Origin: Meloidogyne chitwoodi
Taxonomy: Eukaryota; Nematoda; Chromadorea; Rhabditida; Meloidogynidae
Assembly: GCA_015183035.1 (NCBI GenBank)
Contig: JACZZP010000010.1
Location: 2,046,001 to 2,110,000, forward strand
Length of the DNA: 64,000 bases
Reading direction: 5' to 3'
Shown: piece by piece, positions 26,501-55,448 of the stretch
Position numbering within the stretch: the first letter of the stretch is position 1
Layout of the letters: each line of letters opens with the position of its first letter
Notes under the pieces: model-generated
Seen by the model: the letters and a program-made list of their open reading frames with translations, nothing else
The model's database searches: none
What the model was told of the DNA's origin: nothing
Program-made: the position numbers and the translations under genes

Positions 26501-27126
26501 CTAACAATCGCAATTATGTGAGAGGAGGAAATAAACAATACAATGTTTTATTTTTTTATTTATATTTATGCATCTTTCTGATTTTGTAATTCTTTTGCAG
26601 TAAAAATAAAGAGCCGCATAGAAAAATTAATTTGAAGAGAAGGCGCAGAAAAACACATGAAGAACAATCATCTGCTACTTTATAGATTATTTACGCTAAA
26701 ATATAATAATATTGAAACAATATTGAAAAAAAGAAACTACTTTTTTTGGCCAATTCTCATACACGTGCTCGCTGCTCTCTGTGTCTTTTTTCCTTCCTTG
26801 GAACTTCTCTTCACTTCCAAGTCTCTTCACTTCAAAGGAAGGAACAAAAGACACAGAGAGCAGCGAGCACGTGTATGAGAATTGGCCAAAAAAAGTAAGT
26901 TTCGTATTGTTTTAATATTATTATATTTTAGCGTAAATAATCTATAAAGTAGCAGATGATTGTTCTTCATGTGTTTTTCTGCGCCTTCTCTTCAAATTAA
27001 TTTTTCTATGCGGCTCTTTATTTTTACTGCAAAAGAATTACAAAATCAGAAAGATGCATAAATATAAATAAACAAATAAAACATTGTATTGTTTATTTCC
27101 TCCTCTCACATAATTGCGATTGTTAG
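26501..27126. mobile_element. 626-bp perfect foldback element
   Basis: Two arms of about 300 bp are near-perfect reverse complements around a short centre near 26820. Termini are CTAACAATCGCAATTATG and its complement. It fills most of the gap between the convergent Eph and aldehyde dehydrogenase genes; its right end is 20 bp from the dehydrogenase stop codon. It has no transposase frame, so it is a non-autonomous foldback/MITE. No target-site duplication is visible. The open frame at 26657-26878 is a by-product of the arms. Confidence 0.85.
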
Positions 27127-27145: not shown

Positions 27146-30100
27146 TTAATTAAAAATAATAAGAGAATATCTTTTTATAAAAACAGTCACTTTTATGAAT
27201 TCTTTTGAGGAACCTAAAAATATTAAAAAATTATTTTTTAAATTTTTAAAAATTATAACCTTAATTGTAACAGTCTTAACTTCAGTATATGCCTCTAAAC
27301 CATATTCACCAAGTTCTCGACCAATGCCTGACATTTTGTATCCTCCAAATGGTGCAGCAGGATCAAAAACATCATAACAGTTTACCCTAAATAAATAAAT
27401 AAAATTTGAAAATAATTTTTATAAGTGAAGCAAATTAAAAAATTAAGCAGAAAATAAAAAGTGAAGCAAAATGAAAATTGAAACAAAAAATAAAAAGTTA
27501 AGCAAATTAAATAAGTGAAACAAAATAAAAACTGAAGCAGAAATTAAAAAAATGAAGCAAATAAAAACTAAAAAAACCTCTCACCAAACAGTTCCAGCTC
27601 TAATATTATTAGCAACATATAATGCTTTATCCATGTCTTGAGTAACAACACCTGCAGCTAATCCATAGCATGTTTCATTCGCTTTTTCTACAAGGTCTTT
27701 TATATCATTAAATTTAATAATTGACATAACTGGGCCAAAAATCTTTAAAAAAATAAAATAATATTTTTTTAATATTTTAAACCTCTTCTTGAGCAATTTT
27801 CATTTCAGATTTAACATCAGAAAATATTGTTGGTTGAACAAAATAACCATTTTCTTTTCCATTATATTTTACTCCTCCAGTAACTAATTTTGCACCTTCT
27901 TTTTTACCATATTCAATTAAATTTAGAATTTTACGTTCTTGATCTTGATCAATTTGTGGGCCTTGATTAACATTTAAATCAAAAGGATTGCCTAATACAC
28001 GTTGTTCAGCAAGAATCTTTAAAAAAATAAATAAACTTGAATTTAAAAATAAATAAACTTGAATTTAAAAATAAATAAACTTGAATCTAAAAATAAATAA
28101 ACTTGAATCTAAAAATAAATAAACTTGAATCTAAAAATAAATAAACTTGAATCTAAAAATAAATAAACTTGAATCTAAAAATAAATAAACTTGAATCTAA
28201 AAATAAATAAACTTGAATCTAAAAATAAATAAACTTGAATCTAAAAATAAATAAACTTGCTAACCTTAGAACGTTCCACAAATTCATCATAAATTTTAGA
28301 CTCAACAAAAGTTCTTGAACCAGCACAACAACACTGTCCTTGATTGAAAAAAAGTCCAAAAGCAGCCTGTTCTATTGCAAGATTCATATCAGCATCAGAA
28401 AAAATTATATTTGGACTTTTCCCTCCGAGTTCAAGTGTTATTCTATTTTTCAAAATTAATTAATTAATTTCTTTTAACTTTATTTTTTACCTTTTTAAAT
28501 TAGATGTAGAACATTCTCGTTTAACTTGTAATCCAACTTCAGTAGAACCAGTAAATGCAACTAAAAAATTAAACTTTAAATAATAAACTTGGGTAAATGT
28601 CCAGTTGGCGGTCCACCTATGCGCCTTCTTTTTTCTGCGCCGAAAAAATACTCTAGACTGACTTGATTGATATTGCCCCAAGAAAAACTTTGATGTGTAA
28701 AGGCGAGTTAAATTTGATTTTTTAATTTTGTCTACGTTTCAAACTCTATTAGGAGTGTTTTTATTACTTCTTCATTTTTGGGCCCATGGCTGGTTGGTCT
28801 TGGCAAATACTTGGATCTATTCATTGAAATTCCTCTCTAATGTATGATTTCCATTGATCAGAAAACACCACTTGACAAAATAGTTTCACACTTTAGAGTA
28901 AATTTTAATGAATAGATTCAAGTTTGAAGACCAACCCATGGGCCCAAAAATGAAGAAGTAATAAAGCACTCCTAATAGATCCAAGTTTGACGCGTTTCCA
29001 GCAAACTTCAATCTTTATTAACTTTTTTTAACATCAAAGTTTTTCTTGTGGCAATATCAATCAAGTCAGTCCAGAGTATTTTTTCGGCGCAGAAAAAAGA
29101 AGGCGCATAGGTTGACCGCCAACTGGACATTTACCATAAACTTGAAGCAATATATAAAAAAGTTGAGTGTCAACCTTTAAGTTTCTATTAGTTTTTGAAC
29201 TATAACTTTTTTTCTTTTTTAGATAAAAATTTTTTCCCAAGTCGATTTTGTAAAAAATTTTTTCCTCTATCGAAAGGAATCAAGAAAATTAAATTTGGAC
29301 CATTTTTCAAAAAGTTATAAAGGTTGGCACTCAACCGTCCATTTTTATTAAAAAAAATTTACTTATTGTTAGGTTATAATAAACTTTAAATAAAAATAAA
29401 CCTTTATCTACATTAGGATGTGTAGCAAGAGCCTTCCCAGCTGTTGGTCCATAACCTGGCACAATATTTACAACGCCAGGAGGGAATCCAGCCTAAACTT
29501 TTAAAAATAAAATTAAAAAAAAAATAAAAAACCTCTTTAATTAAATTAGCAATGTATAAAGCAGTTAATGGAGTTTGTTCTGCAGGTTTTAAAATAATTG
29601 TGTTACCCATAGCAAGTGCTGGTGCTAATTTCCAAGATTGCATTAATATTGGGAAATTCCAAGGAATTATTTGGCCTTTTTTGTTAAATTAAAATTAAAA
29701 AAAAATAAAATAAGTTACTAACCAACAACACCCACAGGCTCATGACGTGTATAACAAAAATAATCTCCTCTAATAGGAATAGTTTTCCCGTGGTTTTTAT
29801 CTGCCCAACCAGCATAATATCGGTAAACGGCAACAGCCATTGGAAGATCAGCTAAATTTATAAATTTAATAAAAAATATTTAAATTAAAAAAAAATACCC
29901 AAATAAGAATCTTTATAAGGCTTTCCATTGTCCAGTGTCTCTAAAGAGGCCAACTCACAAGCATCTCTTTCAATTAATGAAGCTAATTTATTTAGTAAAA
30001 CTCCACGTGCTGAAGCATCCATACGACGCCATTCTGAACCTAATTTGAAGGCATCACAGGCTGCCTAAAAAATTAATATTCTAGTATGAAAATAATTCTA

Positions 30101-33612: not shown

Positions 33613-34684
33613 ATGGTTTCATTTTTAAATAATTTAATTAAACTTGAACTAATTTTGCTTTATTTTTCAATAAATTATGTCTCTTTATCTGCACTGGAAG
33701 AGAAAAGGATTAAAAAAGAAATTAAAGAAAATTTAAATCAAGAGACAAATACAAGCAGAAATACTACAGAAGAAAAAGAAAAAGGTAAAAAATAAATAAA
33801 CTTGTAAATATTAAAATAAAACTTGGCTTTTTATACTAATATTTTTATCTCAAGTTTTAAATATTTTTTAAGTTTAATCTTAAAACTTGATTAAAACTTG
33901 AAACTTATTAAAACTTACATATTTCAAGTTTATCTCACTTTTTAATATTTAAGTTTTATTTAATTAAAATAAAAGAGTTAATTAGAGTCTTGGAATTAAA
34001 ATTAAATAAATAAACTTTAATAAAAAAAGAAAAACAAGTAAATGAACGTTATGAAAAATACTTGGCACAGCGAAAACGTATACTTGATAAAGAAAAAAAT
34101 GAAACTGAAAAAACAGAATTAACAACAACAACAAGAACAAGTGAAAAACATAAAGAAAAAGATGAAGAACAAGTTTTGGATGAAAGGTAGGAGATAGTTT
34201 TTAATAAAAATGGGAACGAAATGTCCATTTTTAGAGTTTTGACGAAATGTCCATTTTTAGAGTTTTGACTAAATGTCCATTTTTAGAGTTTTGACTAAAT
34301 GTCCATTAATAAATTAATTTTAAGAAATCCAATAGTTGGAAATGAATATCAAGAATCTCCTACATATTATCAACAACAATACCCTTATTACTACCAAAGT
34401 TACCGTCCTTATCAACAAAATCAAAATTATTATGGTTATTGTGGGAATAATCAACAACAACAATATTATTATTATCCAAGTTATAATTATCCTTACTACG
34501 GTATGTGAAAATTGAAAAATAAAATACAAAAACACAAACAGGTTCAACATATCAACAACCTTCATGGGGAGGAGGTTCTTGGCCAGGCAATTTATTCAAT
34601 TTAGGACTTGGTGGTGGATTTAATATAGGCCCACCTGGAGGAGGAATAGGTGTTGGGACAGGATTTGATGTTAATATTGGATAA
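33613..34684 (+). CDS. Secreted Tyr/Gln/Gly-rich protein
   Basis: Exons 33613-33784, 34030-34186, 34325-34500 and 34542-34684 join in frame. A signal peptide (LILLYFSINYVSLSA) is followed by a Lys/Glu-rich linker with NTS/NTT sequons, then a Tyr/Gln-rich block (YYQQQYPYYYQSYRPYQQN), then a Gly/Pro-rich tail (GGGFNIGPPGGGIGVG) ending in a TAA. The composition resembles structural or adhesive extracellular proteins of nematode cuticle or eggshell, but no named family is recognised. Intron 2 holds a 26-bp tandem repeat. The last exon and its 3' flank are duplicated at 37606-37860. Confidence 0.8.
34212..34305. repeat. 26-bp tandem repeat in intron
   Basis: Three and a half copies of a 26-bp unit (AAATGTCCATTTTTAGAG plus TTTTGAC) directly precede the third exon of the Tyr/Gln-rich gene. 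Each copy contains ATTTTTAG, a nematode-like splice acceptor. The last copy is truncated at the real acceptor. Confidence 0.85.
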
Positions 34685-35037
34685 TAACAAAATAATAAAA
34701 GAAAATAAAATTTTAAATTAACGCATGGTCGTTTCGGTGCGAGTGTGTAATAAATTTATAGTTTGTAGTTTATATTAAAATTTATATTGTCTGGAATAGA
34801 TTTTTAAAATTAATTTATTTTAAAAAGTGCATTCACAATGTGTTCACCTTAAAGTGTCTTATGAAAAGAGAAAGGGCATTGTTTTAAATCATATGTCCTT
34901 TTTTCTCTTATTTATAAAATGTTATGCCATCTCAATAAATATTTTATTTCTCTCTTCACTTTAAAAATTAAAAAAAGGACCCTATGGCTAAAAGTTAACA
35001 CAAAACTCATTACCGCACCAAAACGTCCCACTAAAAA
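34685..35037. other. Intergenic region between secreted genes
   Basis: AT-rich, no coding signal. It holds GGTCGTTTCGGTGC (34727-34740) and, just before the next ATG, GCACCAAAACGTCC (35015-35028). These are opposite-strand versions of the same box and could be the ends of an old roughly 300-bp element. Confidence 0.5.
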
Positions 35038-36910
35038 ATGTTAAAAAAATTAAAAAGGAAAATTTTATTAATTTTTGTATTATTTTTGTTTATTAATGTA
35101 GCAATATGTAAAAAAGAAGAAACAAAAAGTCTTTTAAAAAATCAAGAAAAAAACGAATTTTTTGATTCTTTAAAATTAGAAGGAAAAAACGTAACGTTTC
35201 AGTGCCAAAACAATATCCTCGCGTTTTTACTGAATTAGAATTTTTTGAAATTTTGTATTAGAGAACCTTATTAAAATTTTTTTAAAGATTTGATATTTAA
35301 AAGTTAAAGATAAGTTGATCAATTAAAGTGGTGATATTTTGGACATAACAAATTTTACATTTTTTGGCATAACATCCCAAATAATTAACAAAAAATTATG
35401 AAATTAAATTTACTCTTAGATTACTTAAAAACAATATTTATACAAAATTTCACATTTTTAAGTTTTAAATTCGCAAAGTTATAAGCGTCGAAAAGATAAT
35501 TGGCACTGAAACGTACAAAAAACAAAGGAAAACAAAGAAAACGATTTTAATGAAGATTTTTTAGAAAATACTAGAAAAAATGTAGAAAAATTTGATAAAA
35601 ATAAAGAAAAAATAAAAAATGCTTTAAAAAATATAAAATGGCAAAATATTGAGTTAAATTCAGACAATTTTGAAAAATTTGGAAATTATTTGGAAAAACA
35701 AATAAATTTAAAAGAGGACAATGAATGGCATGAAAAAGTTACTTTATTAGAAGATAAAGGTAAATGTCCAGTTGATGTCCCACCTGTCCGCAAAGAGAAT
35801 TCGCTCTTTTCTTTCCTTCTCTTGCATTTTTGGCGTTAGGAGAAGTGCACGCTTATTTTTCCTTCTCCGCTGTAATATGCCTTTTGGCACTTTGAAAGAA
35901 AGGGATAAAATAATTAAAATTAATTGATAATAAAGTGAATACTCAACAGATCGAGGCTTTTTGGAATAGATTAAGATTCAGAATTGTCCATCAGATAAGA
36001 ATTACAGAAACTGAATTACCTAATTATTTGTCCTTTTACTGGTTCTTATCCCTTCATTATAATCCCATAAAGGTTGTTATCTACCTGATCTTCTAGAAAT
36101 ATATTTTAGAATTTTGTCCCAAATTTATGTTCTTTGATTATTAATCTTTGTTCACTTTATTATCAATTAATTTTAATTATTTTATCCCTTTCTTTCAAAG
36201 TGCCAAAAGGCATATTACAGCGGAGAAGGAAAAATAAGCGTGCACTTGTCCTAACTCCAAAAATGCAAGAGAAGGAAAGAAAAGAGCGAATTCTCTTTGC
36301 GGACAGGTGGGACATCAACTGGACATTTACCGAAGATAAATTTAAAATATTGAAAAATTTTGATTTTCAAGCAATTTTAAAAATACGTGAAATTTGTGGA
36401 AATATTGAAAATATTTTTAGTGAAAATATTTATTTTCCTGCTGAAGCAAAAAGTATTTGTTTAGGGGAAAATTTTGTTGAAAAGTTTGATAAGTTGCTTA
36501 ACTATGCTGATGCCAAGTTTGAAGTAAATTTTAAATGACACTCAAAATTAAGGGCATTGAACCGTCCATATGGTTAATTAGGGTTATAATAGAAGGGAAA
36601 GTTTTTTATCTGATATCTACCGGACACTCAATAAGCGGCACCGAACTGTACGGACACTCAATTAATGGCAATGAACCGTCCTAATTTACAGTTAGGGGGT
36701 TCAGTTAGGGAGGAATTTTAAAAATAAAAAAATTTTTAATTAATTTAGACAGCAAAAACAAAAATAAACAACAACAAATTTAAAGAAATTGTAGAAGAAA
36801 CATACTTATATACAAAAAATATTCGTATAAAATTAAAAAATGTATTTAAACGTATAATAACTACTTTCATAAAAAAAGAAAAAAATCTAAATTATACAAA
36901 GCTGAATTAA
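35038..36910 (+). CDS. Secreted Lys/Glu/Asn-rich protein interrupted by intron-like elements
   Basis: No named family is recognised. Exons 35038-35190, 35528-35759, 36336-36523 and 36749-36910 join in frame into about 245 residues. There is an N-terminal signal peptide (ILLIFVLFLFINVAIC), a charged helical middle, the motif KIREICGNIENIF...AKSIC shared with the gene at 38605, and a basic C-terminal helix. Intron 1 is almost exactly a 326-bp element with GTTTCAGTGCC ends. Intron 2 is almost exactly a 573-bp foldback element flanked by a 9-bp duplication of coding sequence. Splicing at the visible GT and AG keeps the frame and adds Asp-Lys relative to the pre-insertion site. If unspliced, the gene is broken. 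Candidate parasitism effector by inference only. Confidence 0.72.
35191..35516. mobile_element. 326-bp element coinciding with an intron
   Basis: Ends GTAACGTTTCAGTGCC and GGCACTGAAACGTAC are inverted repeats, flanked on both sides by AAAAAAC (35184-35190, 35517-35523). The first two bases form the splice donor of intron 1 of the secreted gene; the acceptor lies 11 nt beyond the right end in flanking sequence (CAAAG|GAA). No coding capacity. Confidence 0.75.
35759..36331. mobile_element. 573-bp foldback introner with 9-bp target duplication
   Basis: The termini are GGTAAATGTCCAGTTGATGT and its complement; the arms pair along most of the length. It is flanked by the exact 9-bp repeat GAAGATAAA (35750-35758 and 36332-36340), which lies within coding sequence. 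The terminal GGTAAAT supplies donor G|GTAAAT, and the duplicated target supplies acceptor GAAG|ATAAA, so the predicted intron is 35760-36335. Removal leaves the reading frame intact. The terminus is shared with the element at 28592-29136. Confidence 0.9.
36623..36684. repeat. Two-copy 30-33 bp repeat carrying the GGCA..GAAC-GT box
   Basis: Two tandem copies of GGACACTCAAT..., each followed by GGCACCGAACTGTAC or GGCAATGAACCGTCC, lie within the third intron of the secreted gene. A further GGCATTGAACCGTCC is at 36553-36567. They are probably debris of the same terminal-repeat family. Confidence 0.6.
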
Positions 36911-37094
36911 AAAAAAAGAAAAGAAAATTAGTGTTTTTTAAGCTTATATTATGTTTTGTAAAAACTAAAATTATATAAACTATTTTTTTATTGTAAATAT
37001 ATTTTTTTAATTTCAAAAGTAAAGTTTTCTTTCTTTTTTTTTGTAAAATATATTTATAATTTAATTAATTGTAATTAAAAAAATAAGCGGTAAA

Positions 37095-37436
37095 GGACGC
37101 TTCAGAGTCGGCCGATTCATAGTAGCTCATATAACTTTTTTCATTTTAAACCTTTTCAGGTAATTTTTATTTCATTCGAAAGAGCTCGAAAAGTAGTCTT
37201 TTCACTAATTTGACCGATCAGATCAATTTATTTTAAAAAAAGTTACGCCCGAAAAACGCGAAAATAACGATTCACTTTTAGCAAGCTGTAACTTTTTGTT
37301 GTGTGATCAGATTTATAGTTACAATTGGTTAAATTAATCCTCTTATTGGATGCTTTCGATTAATAAAAGAACTGTTCAGATAGGTTAAAAATTAAAAAAG
37401 TTATGGCCAAAAATAACCTGCTACACTGAATCGTCC
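37095..37436. mobile_element. 342-bp element with GGACG-TTCAGTG ends
   Basis: Left end GGACGCTTCAGAGTC and right end TACACTGAATCGTCC are imperfect inverted repeats. The interior has repeated ATAACTTTTTT/GTAACTTTTTG and GTTATGGCC modules on alternating strands. It is less AT-rich than its surroundings. No target duplication is clear. Confidence 0.6.
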
Positions 37437-37605
37437 TCCTACACGAAAATAAGGGAATCACCCGAACAGGCGCATGTATATTCTCTCGCTTTCTTTTTTA
37501 TCTCTAATTCTCTCCATTAGATTGCGCGCCTAGATGCCCGCACCTAGTCGGCCGGCAGCACCTAGTCGGTGTACCAACAAAATAAACAATAAACTTGAAT
37601 TTTGT

Positions 37606-37860
37606 AATTTATTCAATTTAGGACTTGGTGGTGGATTTAATATAGGCCCACCTGGAGGAGGAATAGGTGTTGGGACAGGGCTTGATGTTAATATTGGATA
37701 ATAATTAAATTAATAAAAGAAAATAAAATTTAAAATTAAAGCATGGCCATTTCGGTGCGAGTGTGTAATAAATTTATAGTTTGTAGTTTCTATTAAAAGT
37801 TTATATTGTCTGGAATAGATTTTTAAAATTAATTTATTTAAAAAGTGCATTCAAAGTGTA
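37606..37860 (+). pseudogene. Duplicated last exon of the Tyr/Gln/Gly-rich gene
   Basis: Near-identical direct repeat of the final exon part and 3' flank at about 34593-34850: the same Gly/Pro-rich tail (GGGFNIGPPGGGIGVGTG) and stop codon, followed by the same UTR-like sequence, including the CATGG(C/T)C(A/G)TTTCGGTGCGAG segment. The upstream exons are absent, so it is a 3' gene fragment about 3 kb downstream of its parent. A Phe codon has become Leu (GTGF versus GTGL). Confidence 0.82.
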
Positions 37861-38409
37861 AAAGAGAAAGGGCATTGTTTTAATCATATGTACTTTTTAT
37901 ATAAAATGGTTCTTCTAAAATATTTGAATAACCAATATTTATTAACTTTAGACAATTTTAAAGAATTTTAAAGGGCATTCACGTGAAATGTCTCCTCATA
38001 AGACTCAATTGAAAATTTAAAAAAATTTTTTTGGGGGAGAGAGATGGAAAAGAGAGGAATTGGTGTGGGAAAGTCACGTTCATAATTGCCAAAATTAATT
38101 TTTTACAAGTCAATAAAAGCCTTTCTAAATCTTCAATCCTTCATAAATTAAAAAAAAATTTCAATTCAAATTAATATTTTAAAAACTCCAAAGAAAAATT
38201 AAAATGCCCAAATTTAATTTTTTTAAATTATTAAAAATATTTACAGGGAGACCCAAAAGTCTTGACCCACCAATTCATAATTTTATTAAAAATTAAGCTA
38301 GCAAAATAAAATAAAAATCGGTGGATAGGTCAGAGATTGCAATGTGTGGGGAGGGAAATAAACGATTTTATGGGAAGACTCTAATTAATTTAATAAAGGA
38401 GAAATAAAA

Positions 38410-39366: not shown

Positions 39367-41576
39367 TTATTCTTCTTTTTTTGATTCATTCAAAAGTAAT
39401 TTAGATTCAATTGGAAATTCTTCATTTAATTCTTTTTCAATAATTTTATCAATTCTTTTTTGTTTTGAAATAAATTGACGTAAAATAAAATTATATAAAA
39501 TTGGCCATAAAATAAAATAAATAATATAACTATAAAAATACATTGATTTTAATGGCTAAAATAAATGGAGAAAATCAAATAATTTTAAAAATAAATATAC
39601 CACAATCCAAATTTCCTTTTTAACAAGTCCAAAAGTTAAAAAAGCAAAAGCCATAGAAGTACAAATATTTAAACGTCCAAATAACCAACAAAATGGACGT
39701 AACCACCAAAGATTAATTAAATAACGAATTTTGGGAGGACCAAAAGAAATAAATGTATAAAACTAAAATTTAATTAAATTTAAAATTAATTTAAAAAAAG
39801 AAAAGAAAACCTGTTGTTGTGCTATCATACACATAAATTCAAAAGCAAATAATAAAAAATAACCCAAATGATATCCATGCCAAACAGCCAAATATAAAAG
39901 AGTAATTAAATGGCTATAATATTTATTACCTAACCATTTTAATCTTTTGAATATATGACTAGAAATTAAATTTAAAAAATTTAATTTTATTTTTAATTAA
40001 ATTAAAGCGAATGAGAAATTCAGAGTAAATGAGAATGGAAAAGAAAGAAAGGATATCAGATGGATTCGAACCAGTGCTCTCTGGCTTGCAAAGCAGACAC
40101 GTTAACCACTACACCACAACATTACTCACTCTCAAAGACAATTTAATTCTTTTAAAGAATCAAATAGAAGAAATAAAATATTAAAAATAATAATATTTCA
40201 TCAACCCAATAAATTATTAAAAAAATAACAAACAAACTTTCTAGCAAAATCATTAGTAGAACAATTAAAAGAGTCAATAACTGATGAAAAATCACTGCCC
40301 AATTCAAATTTAATAATATTAATGTTTCTGGTTCCATCCCATTTATCATCTCCATTAATGTCTTTTCCATTATAAGAAATTCCACAAAGAATTGAACTTC
40401 CTTCCTATTTTAAATAATTATTTTTTAAAAAATAAAAAAAAGAAACCGTCAAAAGCCAAACAATACAATAACGATACATTGTTGCTTTAAACCAAATTGT
40501 ATTCCAAATAATTTTCCAAATAAATGGAAGAGTCTTTTAAATTAAAAAATATTTATTTATTTATTTTAAAAAATAAATTATTACTAAAAATTCTGATGAA
40601 TTAAAATAACTTTCAGGCACCCAATGAGTTCCCCATTTATATAAAACAGCAAAAAATACACCAACAACAAAACGTTGAATACTTGCCATTATACTAATTA
40701 ATTTAATTTAAATAAATTAAATTAAAAAATAAAGACATTAAATTAAATAAAAACCTTGATTCTCTAACTTCATTTTTATCTTTATCCAAATATTGTCCTT
40801 GTACAAATAAACGAAAACGTTTTAAAGAAAAATGAGGACCAGTAAAAGCTCCACTAAAAAATAGAGAATAAGCAGCAATTTCAAGAAGATTAGGTTTATC
40901 AATTATAAATGTATTTTCTGATTTTAACTAAAATTTAAATTAAATTTAATAAAATTAAATTAAAAAAAGAAAACCTTCTTTGAATCATTATCATCTATAG
41001 AATCCTTTAAAATAATTTTTAAAAGAAAAATAAATTAAAAAACTTTAATATTCTTTTTATTTAAATGTCCATCATAAACATCCATAACTAAAGAAGTCAA
41101 TTTTAAAGTCAAAATACAAAAAGGTGTTGTCCATGTAATATCATAAGTTGAAGATTCTACAAACCAAATTCCAATTAATAAATGTCCCTTTTTTAAATTA
41201 TTTTTTAATTTAAAATAAATAAATTTTACAAGAAAGAAAAAATGTGCAGCAAAAACTGAAAGAGGAGTTCCAGGAATAAAATTGACAATTAAATAAGCAA
41301 TAATAATAGAAAATATTGTATTAAAGACGGCTAATCCTTTAAAATTTTATTTAAAATTTTGACTAAAAACACTCAAAAAAACAAACCGCAAAAAAACAAA
41401 TAAAGCAAAAAACCAGTAATCACAAAAAACCAATGTTGTATTTGTTCATTCATTTTATAAATAAATGTTCGATAAATAACAGATAAAGGATAACATGCCA
41501 AAATTGAAATAAGTAAACGTAAAGCATCATCTTCTATACCAATTAGTTGAGAAAAGTTGCTTAAAATTGTTGACAT
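39367..41576 (-). CDS. mboa-6: Lysophospholipid acyltransferase, MBOAT family (LPCAT3/MBOAT5 type), intact copy
   Basis: ER-membrane enzyme that re-acylates lysophospholipids with polyunsaturated acyl-CoA. The start at 41576 (MSTILSN) and the minus-strand exons give about 480 residues of repeated membrane helices. Family landmarks are YDITWTTPFCILTLKL, FSGAFTGPHFSLKRF, the conserved Asn region (SFNCSTNDFAR), and the catalytic His in LYLAVWHGYHLGY. The C-terminus is Lys/Glu-rich and ends KKEE, a dilysine ER-retrieval signal as in vertebrate LPCAT3. One intron holds a tRNA-like element. The copy is repeated in inverted orientation at 44251-46388 with introns included. A 3' splice-like TTTTCAG lies 13 nt before the ATG, which could be a trans-splicing acceptor. 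Confidence 0.9.
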
Positions 41577-41600
41577 TTTTTTACTTTTCTGAAAATTAAA
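39463..41600 (-). repeat. Left arm of 2.1-kb inverted duplication
   Basis: Reverse complement of 44251-46388 with no net length difference, introns and tRNA-like element included. By eye the arms differ at very few bases, one giving Ser2 versus Pro2 of the acyltransferase. Homology starts at the TTTTCAG before the ATG and stops abruptly 96 bp before the stop codon of this copy. Confidence 0.92.
40051..40122 (-). repeat. tRNA-like Pol III element in acyltransferase intron (left arm)
   Basis: On the minus strand, A box TGGTGTAGTGG and B box GGTTCGAATCC. It lies within an intron in the sense orientation and is duplicated in the right arm at 45729-45800. Poor stem pairing argues against a working tRNA. 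Confidence 0.65.
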
Positions 41601-42119: not shown

Positions 42120-43863
42120 TTACAATTTATAAATCTTATCCTCTTCAGTTTCTTTTTCACTTTCAGAAGATGAACTTGTTGTAGTCGTCTTCCCAGTTTT
42201 ATCTGTACCTTTTTCTTCTTCAGTACTTTCTAAATTATAAAATTTTGATTAAATAATAAAAATTATATTCAACGTTTTGAAGCATCCAAAACAATATTTT
42301 TAACATTTTTTGAGAAACCTATTCAGGAGTATCCTTCTTATTTTTAAACTTTTGTTCCCACTATGTTAAGGATTATTATTCAATTTATTACCTTCAGTAC
42401 TCTGTTTCGTCGGAGCTTTCTTCTCTCCCGGAGCTTTAACGAATGGAGGAGTTTTCAAAGGAATACCTCTGCCACCATCACTTAACATAGAGAAAGGAAC
42501 AGGCCCAACCTCTTCTTCACTAAAAAGTTTTGCTGATTTGATAGATTTGTCAGAAGGCATTGGAGTAGAATAAATATCATCAAGATTAACATTTCCAATC
42601 TCCTCGTATTTGCTGTTATCGGAAATAAGAATTGGTCCTTTAACAAATAAAAATTTTTAAAAGAAAATCTAAAAATTAAAAAGAAAAACCTTGTTTTGGT
42701 TTTTGCACAAGTTGAATACGTTTTGAAGAAATTTGCGTCTTTGCAACAACAAGTGGTTGCTTTTTAATTTTTGCTTTTTGCGATTTAAGTGAACTTGGGA
42801 CATCGCTCCAATCAGATTTACTAACTTCGCTGCTAGTTACAAGTATAGACTTAAAGAAACAAATTATTTAATTTAAACAAAACTTTGGGAATTAAACAAA
42901 TAAACAAATTCTCTATGACTAATACCCACTTTCCAAAATAATCTTTGGGGCGGGGACCTTGGCCAAATTATAAACAAATAAAATACCCTGTCACTCTTAG
43001 AAGTATCAGATTTCGGCATTTCCTCTTTACTACTCATTAATATTTTTTCGCTTCTGTACTCATTCTCAACTAGTTTATAATGTTGCTCCAAATGAAGTAT
43101 CTTCTTATTGTGTGGAACAACCAAACAGAACCGCACGAGTGCCCAAATTATGTTTGAACTTTAAGACAAAAAATTAGACTTTAAATATTCTTGACTTACA
43201 CAATCATGAAGCAAAAAGCACCAAGCAAGTAATAAAGAGCAATCTTATCATCATATTCCAGCATCTCATCAGCGTCAAGAGTAGAATAAGGTAAGCTAAA
43301 AAAATAAAATGAGACAAAGGTATAGATAAATTTAAAAAATTAATTTAAGACCGAAAATCGTCCTAAAAACAGAAAACTTACTCATCAGATGCAGATTCAG
43401 AACTAACAAAATAAGATGGCTCCAAAGATGTAGATTTTGAAATATCAACAGAAGATAGCCTATCATGCGTAGATCCAGAACTAATAGAGGAAGATGCATT
43501 TTCAGATGTAGATCCAAAACTGACAGAAGATGCATTTTCAGTTGTAGATCCAAAACTGACAGAAGATGCATTTTCAGTTGTAGATCCAAAACTGACAGAA
43601 GATGCATTTTCAGTTGTAGATCCAAAACTGACAGAAGAAGGCTCATTTGATGTAGAGTTTGAACTAACAAAAGACTCATTAATTGTAGATCCAGAAATAG
43701 AAGATGGCTCATTAGTTGCAGCTTTGGAAGTCACAAAAGATGTCTCCTCAGGTGTAGATTCAGAAGTAATAAATGACTCATTAGATGCAGATTCAGAATT
43801 AACAAAAGAAGATTTGTAGCAAAGGAATAAAAGAAATACAATTAAATAATTAAAACGCAACAT
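42120..43863 (-). CDS. Single-pass membrane protein with Ser/Thr-rich repeat ectodomain
   Basis: No named family is recognised. Exon 1 (43863 down to about 43382) encodes a signal peptide (YLIVFLLFLCYKSSFVNS) and a Ser/Thr/Glu-rich ectodomain with about four copies of the 12-residue unit FGSTTENASSVS (36-bp repeat); each carries an N-glycosylation sequon (NAS). Following exons give YSTLDADEMLEYDDK, then a membrane helix (ALYYLLGAFCFMIVVSNIIW), a basic stop-transfer segment, and a cytoplasmic tail rich in Ser, Lys and Pro (VGPVPFSMLSDGGRGIPLKT). It ends in an acidic Ser/Thr tail with TAA at 42120. The layout suggests a mucin-like surface protein. It sits between the two palindrome arms, head to head with the fusion gene. 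Confidence 0.75.
43505..43640. repeat. 36-bp coding minisatellite
   Basis: Nearly identical 36-bp units (core ACAGAAGATGCATTTTCAG on the plus strand) encode the 12-residue repeat of the membrane protein. The central copies are identical, implying recent copy-number change. Confidence 0.9.
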
Positions 43864-44274
43864 TGTGTTGAATTAAATTCAGATTTATGCGTAAAAGTGT
43901 CTGATCTATGCTTTTATAGTGTAAATTTAAAAATGTTGAAAAATAAAAATAGAACTACAGTATTGGAACAAAATAGAAAGAAAATATGTGTGTGACAAAA
44001 AGAAAGATTTTCAAATTAGGTAATTCGAATTTGGTAAAACGAAAAATATTTAAAATGAAAAAATTGTATAAGAGTTAGAGAAAATTAAAAATAAAAGAGA
44101 AGAATATAAAAAGAGAGAATTTTTGAGTAAAGAGTTAGCTGATTTTTTACTATTTCAAAGTGTTAATTAGTGAAAAATCGTCTAATAACCTACTTTTTTG
44201 ATAGTTTTTTAGAATTTTTTTCTATAAATTTTGGTGTTGTTTTAAATTTATTTAATTTTCAGAAAAGTAAAAAA
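43864..44274. promoter_or_regulatory. Head-to-head 5' region
   Basis: A 411-bp gap between the start codons of the minus-strand membrane protein and the plus-strand acyltransferase-protease gene; it must serve both. It is not homologous to the upstream region of the left acyltransferase copy, so the right copy has different regulation. TTTTCAG at 44256-44262 precedes the ATG and could be a trans-splice acceptor. Confidence 0.45.
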
Positions 44275-46388
44275 ATGCCAACAATTTTAAGCAACTTTTC
44301 TCAACTAATTGGTATAGAAGATGATGCTTTACGTTTACTTATTTCAATTTTGGCATGTTATCCTTTATCTGTTATTTATCGAACATTTATTTATAAAATG
44401 AATGAACAAATACAACATTGGTTTTTTGTGATTACTGGTTTTTTGCTTTATTTGTTTTTTTGCGGTTTGTTTTTTTGAGTGTTTTTAGTCAAAATTTTAA
44501 ATAAAATTTTAAAGGATTAGCCGTCTTTAATACAATATTTTCTATTATTATTGCTTATTTAATTGTCAATTTTATTCCTGGAACTCCTCTTTCAGTTTTT
44601 GCTGCACATTTTTTCTTTCTTGTAAAATTTATTTATTTTAAATTAAAAAATAATTTAAAAAAGGGACATTTATTAATTGGAATTTGGTTTGTAGAATCTT
44701 CAACTTATGATATTACATGGACAACACCTTTTTGTATTTTGACTTTAAAATTGACTTCTTTAGTTATGGATGTTTATGATGGACATTTAAATAAAAAGAA
44801 TATTAAAGTTTTTTAATTTATTTTTCTTTTAAAAATTATTTTAAAGGATTCTATAGATGATAATGATTCAAAGAAGGTTTTCTTTTTTTAATTTAATTTT
44901 ATTAAATTTAATTTAAATTTTAGTTAAAATCAGAAAATACATTTATAATTGATAAACCTAATCTTCTTGAAATTGCTGCTTATTCTCTATTTTTTAGTGG
45001 AGCTTTTACTGGTCCTCATTTTTCTTTAAAACGTTTTCGTTTATTTGTACAAGGACAATATTTGGATAAAGATAAAAATGAAGTTAGAGAATCAAGGTTT
45101 TTATTTAATTTAATGTCTTTATTTTTTAATTTAATTTATTTAAATTAAATTAATTAGTATAATGGCAAGTATTCAACGTTTTGTTGTTGGTGTATTTTTT
45201 GCTGTTTTATATAAATGGGGAACTCATTGGGTGCCTGAAAGTTATTTTAATTCATCAGAATTTTTAGTAATAATTTATTTTTTAAAATAAATAAATAAAT
45301 ATTTTTTAATTTAAAAGACTCTTCCATTTATTTGGAAAATTATTTGGAATACAATTTGGTTTAAAGCAACAATGTATCGTTATTGTATTGTTTGGCTTTT
45401 GACGGTTTCTTTTTTTTATTTTTTAAAAAATAATTATTTAAAATAGGAAGGAAGTTCAATTCTTTGTGGAATTTCTTATAATGGAAAAGACATTAATGGA
45501 GATGATAAATGGGATGGAACCAGAAACATTAATATTATTAAATTTGAATTGGGCAGTGATTTTTCATCAGTTATTGACTCTTTTAATTGTTCTACTAATG
45601 ATTTTGCTAGAAAGTTTGTTTGTTATTTTTTTAATAATTTATTGGGTTGATGAAATATTATTATTTTTAATATTTTATTTCTTCTATTTGATTCTTTAAA
45701 AGAATTAAATTGTCTTTGAGAGTGAGTAATGTTGTGGTGTAGTGGTTAACGTGTCTGCTTTGCAAGCCAGAGAGCACTGGTTCGAATCCATCTGATATCC
45801 TTTCTTTCTTTTCCATTCTCATTTACTCTGAATTTCTCATTCGCTTTAATTTAATTAAAAATAAAATTAAATTTTTTAAATTTAATTTCTAGTCATATAT
45901 TCAAAAGATTAAAATGGTTAGGTAATAAATATTATAGCCATTTAATTACTCTTTTATATTTGGCTGTTTGGCATGGATATCATTTGGGTTATTTTTTATT
46001 ATTTGCTTTTGAATTTATGTGTATGATAGCACAACAACAGGTTTTCTTTTCTTTTTTTAAATTAATTTTAAATTTAATTAAATTTTAGTTTTATACATTT
46101 ATTTCTTTTGGTCCTCCCAAAATTCGTTATTTAATTAATCTTTGGTGGTTACGTCCATTTTGTTGGTTATTTGGACGTTTAAATATTTGTACTTCTATGG
46201 CTTTTGCTTTTTTAACTTTTGGACTTGTTAAAAAGGAAATTTGGATTGTGGTATATTTATTTTTAAAATTATTTGATTTTCTCCATTTATTTTAGCCATT
46301 AAAATCAATGTATTTTTATAGTTATATTATTTATTTTATTTTATGGCCAATTTTATATAATTTTATTTTACGTCAATTTATTTCAAAA
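44251..46388 (+). repeat. Right arm of 2.1-kb inverted duplication
   Basis: Mirror image of 39463-41600; paired coordinates add up to 85851. Homology ends at 46388 within the last acyltransferase exon, immediately before the sequence that leads into the protease domain. Confidence 0.92.
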
Positions 46389-53310: not shown

Positions 53311-55448
53311 TTATATTTTTCTTCTTCTCTCTTTATTTTCCTTTTTAATTTCCTCTTTTTCACCTTCAATTTCATTTAATTCTTCTTTTTCTTTAATTTC
53401 TTCTTTACATTTTTCTTCCTTATTTTCTAAGTATTCACTAGACTCTGATGGAGAAATTGATGAATGTTCTGGAGATGTAGAACAATTGGCATTATTTATA
53501 GACTCTAATAGTTCATTTGAAGATGAATTTAATGTTGAATTATTACAATTTGATGAGATAAGATTCCCAGGAATATTACTACTATTGGGTAATTCAAACA
53601 TTCTGGCCAACTAAAAATTTATTATATAATATCAAATAAAAATATATTTTTTTACTTTTCTCGCCAAAGGGAAAAGTTCATCTCTTCTAGTAAGCAATTC
53701 AGGTCTTAATAAGCTAAGCTGTACTGCTGATTCATTAACTATACGTTCATGTCTTGTTAAAGTTCTATCTGAACGTCTTTTAGCATCAAAACGACCATAA
53801 ATTCGAGCAAAAAGGCGAAAATGTTCAACACGTAAAGGATTTTCTTGCGGCATTGAAATAGCTTCTAAAAGACCTCTAAAAAATTTAAATCAAAAAATAA
53901 GATATATAATTTTTACCTTTCTAACCGTTTTTTACCATGACCAGATATTCTTGGTTCTAAGTATGGAGGTAATAAAGTAATTAATTCATTTGCAAGTTGG
54001 GATAAACGAAGCATCTCATTTTCGCTTAAACGCTCAGTTATTGAAGGAGAGGAACAAGAAGAAGAATATGAAGGTGTGGGGATTGCTGGAAATTCTGATT
54101 TTTAAATATCTGATTTTTAAATATTCTGATTTCAATTTATTTAATTGTAAATTATTCTGATTTGATTAAACTTATTACTTTGATTTTGTGTTATTGCTGT
54201 ATTTTCCGGAAAAGTTTTAATTATTTCCTCACTTAAAACTTGTTCTGGTTCTTCTTTTGCTTCTTTTCCCATTAAAATACCCATAGGAGGTGTGTTTGGA
54301 GGGGGTGAAAATGACATTCTTGCTCTTTTATTAAAATTTTCGATAAAAGGTTGGTTTTGTAAAATGTTAGATGTTGTAGTATTTACAAGACTAAGCAATA
54401 TATGTTGAAAGGAAAGTGAAGGTGGAAAAGTTGTTGCTATAAGATTTATTATTTTTTAAAGTTAATAAATCTTACTATTATTTTGAGACTGAAATGTTGT
54501 TACTGGACAAGATAATGGTGGAGTAGGATTTAATGGAAAAAGAATGTCTTGGTCAATATATGATGGAGTTTGTTGTTGTTGAGTTAATGTAGTGGACAAG
54601 TCAATTTGGCCTGTAGAGGGAAGATATCCTTAAAATTAATATTTAAATTATAAATATTTATTTAAATAATAATTTTACCAGGAACTAAAAATTGTAAAGC
54701 TGCAGTGAGATTGTCTGTAGAAGAAGTGCTAGGGAAGTCAATTGGTGGGAGGCCTAAAAATTAAAAAAAATTAATTAAAAATAAATTAAATTAACCAATG
54801 AATGGTACAGTAGTTATTAAAAACTGTGCTCGATTGACAGAAAATTCACTAAGAGTCCTTTGTAATCGGCGAACGTGTAGAGGTTTTGAAGCCATTCCAA
54901 CCTTAATTTAAAAATAAAAATAAATAAAATATTAAAAATACCAAAGACATAATTTCAAGAAATTCAGTTTCATCACATTGCATTATTTGATCAATATCAT
55001 CACCTCCTTGAGAAATAAACACATCAAAATATTGAGTTAAACGAGCTCGAAAAAGGACAGCTTGTAATTGCCATTCAGCCAATGATTGGGCTAATCTCAT
55101 TCCAGAAAGATGAAGTTGGGATCTGAAAAGAAAAATAAATTTTAAAGCAGAATTTAAAACAAAATCAGAATTTTTGAAAATAAAATTGAAATCAGAATTT
55201 ACAATAAATAAACTAGAATTTTCAAAAATCAGAATTAAAATTTCATTAATACTTAATTATACATCAGACTAAATGCTTAAATAAAAAATAAGTCTAATAA
55301 AAATAGTAAATATTCACCTTTGATGTTGTTGTTCAACATTATTGTTGTTTCCAATTAATAATTGTGGAGATTGTTCATTTAAAGGTGGACTAGGCGTAGA
55401 TTGTTGTTGTTCTAACTGTGAAGATGATGATTGTTTTTTTTCTGCCAT
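53311..55448 (-). CDS. mab-10: NAB-family transcriptional co-repressor (MAB-10)
   Basis: Nuclear cofactor of EGR-type zinc-finger factors; in C. elegans MAB-10 works with LIN-29 in terminal differentiation. Minus-strand exons: 55448-55318, 55122-54942, 54901-54796, 54753-54679, 54628-54476, 54436-54179, 54085-53917, 53875-53656, 53610-53311. A Gln/Ser-rich start is followed by the NCD1 domain (LAEWQLQAVLFRARLTQYF, ISQGGDDIDQIMQCDETEFL, LVGMASKPLHVRRLQRTLSE). A Ser/Pro/Gln-rich linker with an MSFSPPPNTPPMG stretch follows, then an NCD2-like domain (LSENEMLRLSQLANELITLL ... RLFARIYGRFDAKRR ... LARMFELPN). The C-terminus is Ser/Glu-rich and ends in basic ERRRKI. About 520 residues. One intron contains ATTCTGATTT repeats. 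Confidence 0.93.

Follow-up and report, generated by a model that had tools for sequence, protein, structure and literature searches.

A probable recent insertion of a Merlin-type foldback MITE into an open reading frame of Meloidogyne chitwoodi

In a stretch of 64,000 nt from the nematode Meloidogyne chitwoodi (positions 2,046,001 to 2,110,000 of contig JACZZP010000010.1, assembly GCA_015183035.1; hereafter the window), we analysed a foldback element that interrupts an open reading frame. On the results obtained, we think it probable that a non-autonomous foldback MITE, itself probably of the Merlin type, was recently inserted into a frame which a repeat-like sequence of older appearance splits as well. 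Most likely, this was an ordinary MITE insertion, spliced from the transcript occasionally at best. An earlier note on the same DNA had read the element as an introner, i.e., as an element that makes introns; the data obtained do not support this reading at the level of the family. The confidences with which we word the competing explanations below are not mutually exclusive.

Results

The Element and Its Host Frame

The earlier note had described a 573-bp inverted repeat within an open frame, flanked by exact 9-bp copies of GAAGATAAA, and all of this was confirmed (Table 1). The two 181-nt arms show 2 mismatches between them, the predicted hairpin has an energy of −348 kcal/mol (z −39), and the insertion together with its target duplication amounts to 582 nt, i.e., 3 × 194. 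The terminus is GGTAAAT at each end, and the earlier note was right in placing a donor-like motif at both. The 16-mer end of the element is found four times in the window vs. 0.28 expected in shuffles. The remaining two occurrences are the termini of a second copy of the end family at 28592–29135 (544 bp, duplication ATAAACTTG), which belongs to another subfamily (L016) and whose arms match Merlin loci bearing a transposase.

Table 1. Coordinates of the features at the insertion locus (positions within the window)
Feature	Position	Strand	Remarks
Upstream ORF, signal-peptide-like start	35038..35193	+	signal peptide judged by eye
Repeat-like insertion, 15-base inverted ends ACGTTTCAGTGCCAA	35194..35514	.	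separates the upstream ORF from the 35510 frame
Open frame left of the element	35510..35758	+	83 codons, no Met
Target site duplication, copy 1, GAAGATAAA	35750..35758	+	exact 9 bp
Foldback element, non-autonomous MITE, probably Merlin-type	35759..36331	.	573 bp
Left arm	35759..35939	+	181 nt; end gives donor-like AAG/GTAAAT, GT at 35760
Right arm	36151..36331	-	181 nt; read on the minus strand, it too begins GGTAAAT
Target site duplication, copy 2, GAAGATAAA	36332..36340	+	exact 9 bp
GAAG, acceptor proposed in the earlier note, weak	36332..36335	+	score -3.8
Open frame following the element, up to its stop	36341..36538	+	in phase with the left frame
TTTTGATTTTCAAG, best in-phase acceptor for the element donor	36358..36371	+	score 7.3

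The significance of any splicing depends on the state of the host frame. It is quite possible, if short of probable, that this frame was already a dead gene when the element arrived, in which case splicing would have no bearing. Such a history is suggested by the diverged 321-bp insertion at 35194–35514, which has 15 partial matches elsewhere at 69–80% identity and shows no clear target duplication by eye; it looks older, since its other matches are partial and only 69–80% identical. A splice in phase at the edge of this insertion would be poor (donor −5.8, acceptor 1.1). With a score of 8.4, the best splice from the upstream ORF into the 35510 frame would skip most of that frame, which itself has no Met. 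Neither homologues nor paralogues of the host frame were found: the protein collection, which may hold few nematodes, gave none; one search of the genome returned the frame itself and a chance match (E 0.96) and a second search only the frame itself; and Pfam gave nothing above the cut-off on the host frames. On the other hand, two stretches of the host frame, of 81 and 65 codons, are free of stops, while the other two forward frames have 13 and 25 stops among 144 codons, which suggests coding constraint until recently.

Two copies of a gene-end-like segment, lying 3 kb from each other (34589–34783 and 37606–37801, 91–93% identity), bracket the host frame. Elsewhere in the window, a perfect inverted repeat is formed by 40851–41600 and 44251–45000, with at least 750 nt per arm and 2650 nt between them, and its arms may extend outside the searched region. 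Another foldback lies at 26501–27126 (222-nt arms, 99% complementary, 182 nt between), a 22-bp tandem array at 27979–28308, and a 36-bp tandem repeat within overlapping open frames at 43454–43771. A conserved exon for the NAB NCD1 SAM domain was detected on the minus strand at 54906–55256 (E 7.8e-21).

Copies of the Family and Their Age

The genome searched comprised 47,477,280 bases in 30 contigs. The 16-mer end, with up to 2 mismatches, gave 162 + 163 matches vs. 5 + 7 for the reversed pattern, and the family is estimated from this end pattern at about 160 copies. The family ends are GGTAAATGTCC or GGTAAATAACC; the latter variant, with up to 1 mismatch, gave 53 + 60 matches, a count that overlaps those for the main end. 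Among the matches listed, we read 86 paired entries, leaving out half-copies and 8 listed pairs. One entry (L057) represents the L054 copy wrongly paired, and two others (L094 and L095) look like one duplicated locus, so that about 84 insertions of the roughly 160 were read.

A target duplication accompanies 82 of the 86 entries, the mispaired L057 being one of the four that have none. Its length is 9 bp in 69 cases and 8 bp in 13; 77 duplications are perfect, three have one mismatch and two have two. They are AT-rich, with a mild preference for G as the first base and C as the last. Most copies (71 of 82) measure 500–660 bp, and five exceed 1.2 kb. A near full-length neighbour at 77–100% identity exists for 72 of the 82. 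The copy under study differs from a copy in contig 13 by 1 base in 573, which indicates that it moved recently.

The termini are strongly conserved: among 164 ends, G occupies position 1 in 162 and position 2 in all 164, although this conservation is partly due to selection, the ends having been picked by a 16-base pattern with up to 2 mismatches. The donor motif is likewise kept at nearly all 164 ends, again partly by selection because the pattern covers those bases, but positions 10–16 are conserved as well.

Affinity to Merlin and Mutator Elements

The superfamily to which the element belongs was judged from its ends, arms and duplications and from similarity to transposase-bearing loci. 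According to the parts of PMC8101967 consulted, Merlin elements have terminal GG, arms of 24–462 bp and 8- or 9-bp duplications. The family ends begin with GG and its duplications are of 8 or 9 bp, and Merlin (IS1595-type) appears the likelier assignment, though unproven; terminal GG, arm length and duplication length all fit that description.

Copies were compared with the transposase loci by blastn. At a threshold of 1e-3 there were 445 matches vs. 187 in the reversed-sequence control, whose best match reached 1.6e-8, and only matches below 1e-10 were used. At this level the arms of 9 copies, all of the L016 subfamily, match IS1595-transposase loci (L052 and L053), the best at 7e-34, and the L016 arm aligns with the L053 arm from the first base. 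This is a sister subfamily: in the best local alignment, the 573-bp subfamily has only the outer 33 bp in common with L016, and its own end-only alignments to Merlin remain within the shuffle range.

We also looked for the 16-base end, allowing up to 4 mismatches, in transposase-bearing loci, namely in 8 of the 26 MULE matches and 8 of the 16 IS1595 matches in the genome. The end was not found in the IS1595 loci L047–L053, L046 has a single match with 4 mismatches, and only L054 contains the end proper, there as part of a distinct copy next to a Merlin relic. No autonomous copy with the family ends was found among the loci scanned. When Merlin ORFs were used as tblastn queries against the 82 copies, transposase similarity was limited to two weak matches, both in L108 (E 0.62 and 0.75).

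Four Merlin copies of 2.19 kb (L048, L049, L050 and L051) are 99.5–99.95% identical, and each carries an open frame of 179 aa within the IS1595 domain, L048 having a 219-aa frame in addition; this family has probably been active recently. The intact copies end in GGTAAAAC/GGAAAAAC.

The earlier note had suggested a Mutator-like element, which 9-bp duplications would fit. Of the 82 duplications, 69 have this length and 13 measure 8 bp, and Merlin would probably fit somewhat better. A Mutator-like origin, with kinship to Tm1 of root-knot nematodes, passed from first choice to a rather unlikely rival. Tm1 resembles the element in its 9-bp duplications and foldback arms, as far as the consulted parts of PMC3169594 describe it, and the genome has 26 MULE matches. 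A MULE terminus agrees with the element end at 10 of 11 positions: the MULE locus L045, whose tandem units resemble those of Tm1, has the terminus GGTAAAGGTCC vs. GGTAAATGTCC in the element. Against this stand the 8-bp duplications, the match of sister-subfamily arms to Merlin loci, the absence of the 16-base end within 3 mismatches from all 8 MULE loci read, and the published Tm1 ends. In the same portions of PMC3169594, Tm1 arms are said to consist of tandem units of about 14 bp and to have asymmetric 7-bp ends, CGGTTAA/CCTACCC, which differ from those of the element; no Tm1-type tandem units are listed in the arms within 35600–36500. The MULE-bearing element of L045 itself (281–2756) has arms with tandem CGTTTCAGAGT-type units, like Tm1.

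Splice Sites at the Locus

Splice sites were scored with a model of 40 introns inferred from the window (6 by eye and 34 by score, with 34000–38000 left out) and with a looser model whose log-odds consensus is implausible, with G at −9 and −4; both were self-trained on the window and are partly circular. The element end does make a credible donor, as the earlier note had held: AAG/GTAAAT scores 8.0, at the 56th percentile of the training donors (38th in the looser model). The arithmetic of the proposed intron also proved right, since a donor after 35759 and an acceptor after 36335 give 576 nt, keep the frame and add two codons; the frame is, however, kept by other acceptors besides GAAG.

The acceptor is the weak point of the proposal. 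GAAG, supplied by the second copy of the duplication, falls below every training acceptor and was rejected as a likely site; 57% of the AGs on the plus strand of the window score at least as well in the 40-intron model and 82% in the looser one. The in-phase acceptor ending at 36371, 36 nt past GAAG, stands at the 26th percentile of training acceptors, with 5.5% of AGs as good, and at the 91st percentile in the looser model. Both models agree in the order, with GAAG near the bottom and 36371 above it, and if the window copy is spliced, the downstream site would be the better guess. Another acceptor, in the right arm at 36200, is in phase and open yet scores poorly (8th percentile in the looser model, 0 in the 40-intron model). 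Unspliced read-through into the element meets a stop after 26 codons.

Removal of the element from its own donor at 35760 to the pre-existing exonic acceptor at 36371 is conceivable but unlikely. This splice would take out an intron of 612 nt and keep the frame, and the product would lose ten codons relative to its length prior to the insertion; one site would come from the element and the other, by chance, from the host exon. Of the pairs joining the two frames in phase it is the best, with a combined score of 15.2 vs. 4.1 for the GAAG pair, and the frame stays open after the acceptor. An in-phase acceptor as good and as near occurs at just 1.9% of 3000 in-frame control points, a comparison made after the acceptor had been noticed. 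On the other side, an in-phase acceptor of at least 7 within 150 nt belongs to the window copy alone among the five open-frame copies scored (L001, L056, L008, L065 and L023), the score in L056 being 6.0, at 145 nt; the 181-bp hairpin would pair the donor, which is located at its base; and the frame before the element, lacking Met, needs a further splice.

The Family as a Whole

The suggestion of the earlier note that the family could seed introns genome-wide was examined by an open-frame proxy for the comparison of family ends with intron borders. Frames open in phase for at least 60 nt on both sides surround 20 of the 82 copies vs. 36% of 4000 random points, all taken from this window. In a previous set that overlaps with this one, such frames surround 16 of 62 copies vs. 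75 of 195 local points. With long cut-offs the family lies slightly above the null, in small numbers (3/82 vs. 2.4% at 150 nt; 1/82 vs. 0.4% at 200 nt). Of the 164 strands of the duplications, 40 (24%) contain an AG vs. 26% expected. By this proxy, copies standing as introns bordered by the element are not a feature of the family, and the element with its duplication does not regularly give both splice sites: the donor motif is present, while AG is at background. Copies that favour neither open frames nor AG-bearing duplications, together with the weak acceptor proposed, argue against genome-wide seeding of introns. Since its relatives show no preference for genes, an ordinary insertion is likelier than an intron maker.

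For seven copies in frames that look open, we noted the first AG beyond the element. Three copies (the window copy, L056 and L065) have it in frame and open, L064 has it in frame but with a stop, L008 and L023 have it out of frame, and none is listed for L007; this outcome is near chance and does not speak against splicing. The open frame in which the L008 copy (1502–2098) lies is that of a signal-peptide-like ORF, and the two AGs closest to the copy are out of frame. A Pfam run on the flanking ORFs of five other loci, chosen for their long ORFs, revealed a conserved exon on one side only in two: an RPA C-terminal domain in L063 (E 5.9e-17), the match stopping 13 residues short of the element, and an Ig I-set domain in L067 (E 1.6e-6), stopping 12 residues short.

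A weaker form of the idea is that the terminal repeats act as 5′ donors in both orientations and exonic copies are partly spliced to chance acceptors downstream, making the family a one-sided, inefficient introner with 35760–36371 as an early case; we hold this to be improbable, but it would be the first such case in a nematode. As for the introner proper of the earlier note, with its donor in the terminal repeat and its acceptor in the duplication, correct frame arithmetic and the existence elsewhere of introners that carry a 5′ site and co-opt a 3′ site (in the parts of PMC9860276 consulted) leave it highly improbable in view of a GAAG that scores below all training acceptors, duplications not rich in AG, and copies no more frequent in open frames than random points.

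Discussion

In this work, we considered how a foldback element came to lie in an open frame of M. chitwoodi and what it may do there. Under the preferred reading, the recent Merlin-type MITE insertion, the element would have been moved in trans by a transposase whose staggered cuts (8/9 bp) fall at the terminal GG. The donor-like GGTAAAT would be part of the end required by this transposase, and its resemblance to a 5′ splice site would be fortuitous. By default, the transcript would carry the 181-bp hairpin and read through to the early stop; disruption of the gene is therefore the most likely effect, provided that the gene was still alive. Partial removal may occur when the element donor is spliced to a chance acceptor downstream.

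Should exonic copies be spliced, they would offer a young, datable case of a transposon turning into an intron in an animal group without reported ones. Otherwise, the locus provides a caution, as a donor-like end combined with an in-frame AG is common by chance in AT-rich DNA, and the family would be a recent MITE family of which our literature searches found no description. Among animals and land plants, the systematic survey of PMC9860276, in the parts consulted, finds introners in two groups, both of them animals, and those parts of its main text do not mention nematodes. In the literature found, which includes a nematode intron study (PMC9169325, consulted in part), no nematode introner is described, judging by titles and the beginnings of abstracts.

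The element shares with introners, as presented in the consulted parts of PMC9860276, that it is a repeated element with arms and a target duplication and that it could supply one splice site. Introners differ in forming families of introns, whereas the copies considered here do not favour open frames and any splicing of them is predicted.

Insertions of Tc1 are reportedly spliced from C. elegans transcripts, although our literature search found no paper on this. Tc1 is similarly a nematode DNA transposon that, lying in an exon, may be removed by cryptic splicing; the difference is that transcripts were observed there, while any splicing of the present element is predicted.

The nearest described family in the genus, among the literature found and within the parts of PMC3169594 consulted, is the Mutator/Foldback element Tm1, likewise with foldback arms, 9-bp duplications and mostly MITE-like copies, from which the element is set apart by the 7-bp end motifs and 14-bp units of Tm1. 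The intact Merlin family of this genome also differs from the element, in that its ends are GG[T/A]AAAACTTG and its duplications, read by eye, are 8 bp in all four copies. With the Merlin superfamily and its MITEs, as characterized in the consulted parts of PMC8101967, the element nevertheless has in common the terminal GG, long arms (181 bp here) and duplications of 8 or 9 bp, and the homology of sister-subfamily arms to transposase-bearing loci extends this likeness within the genome itself.
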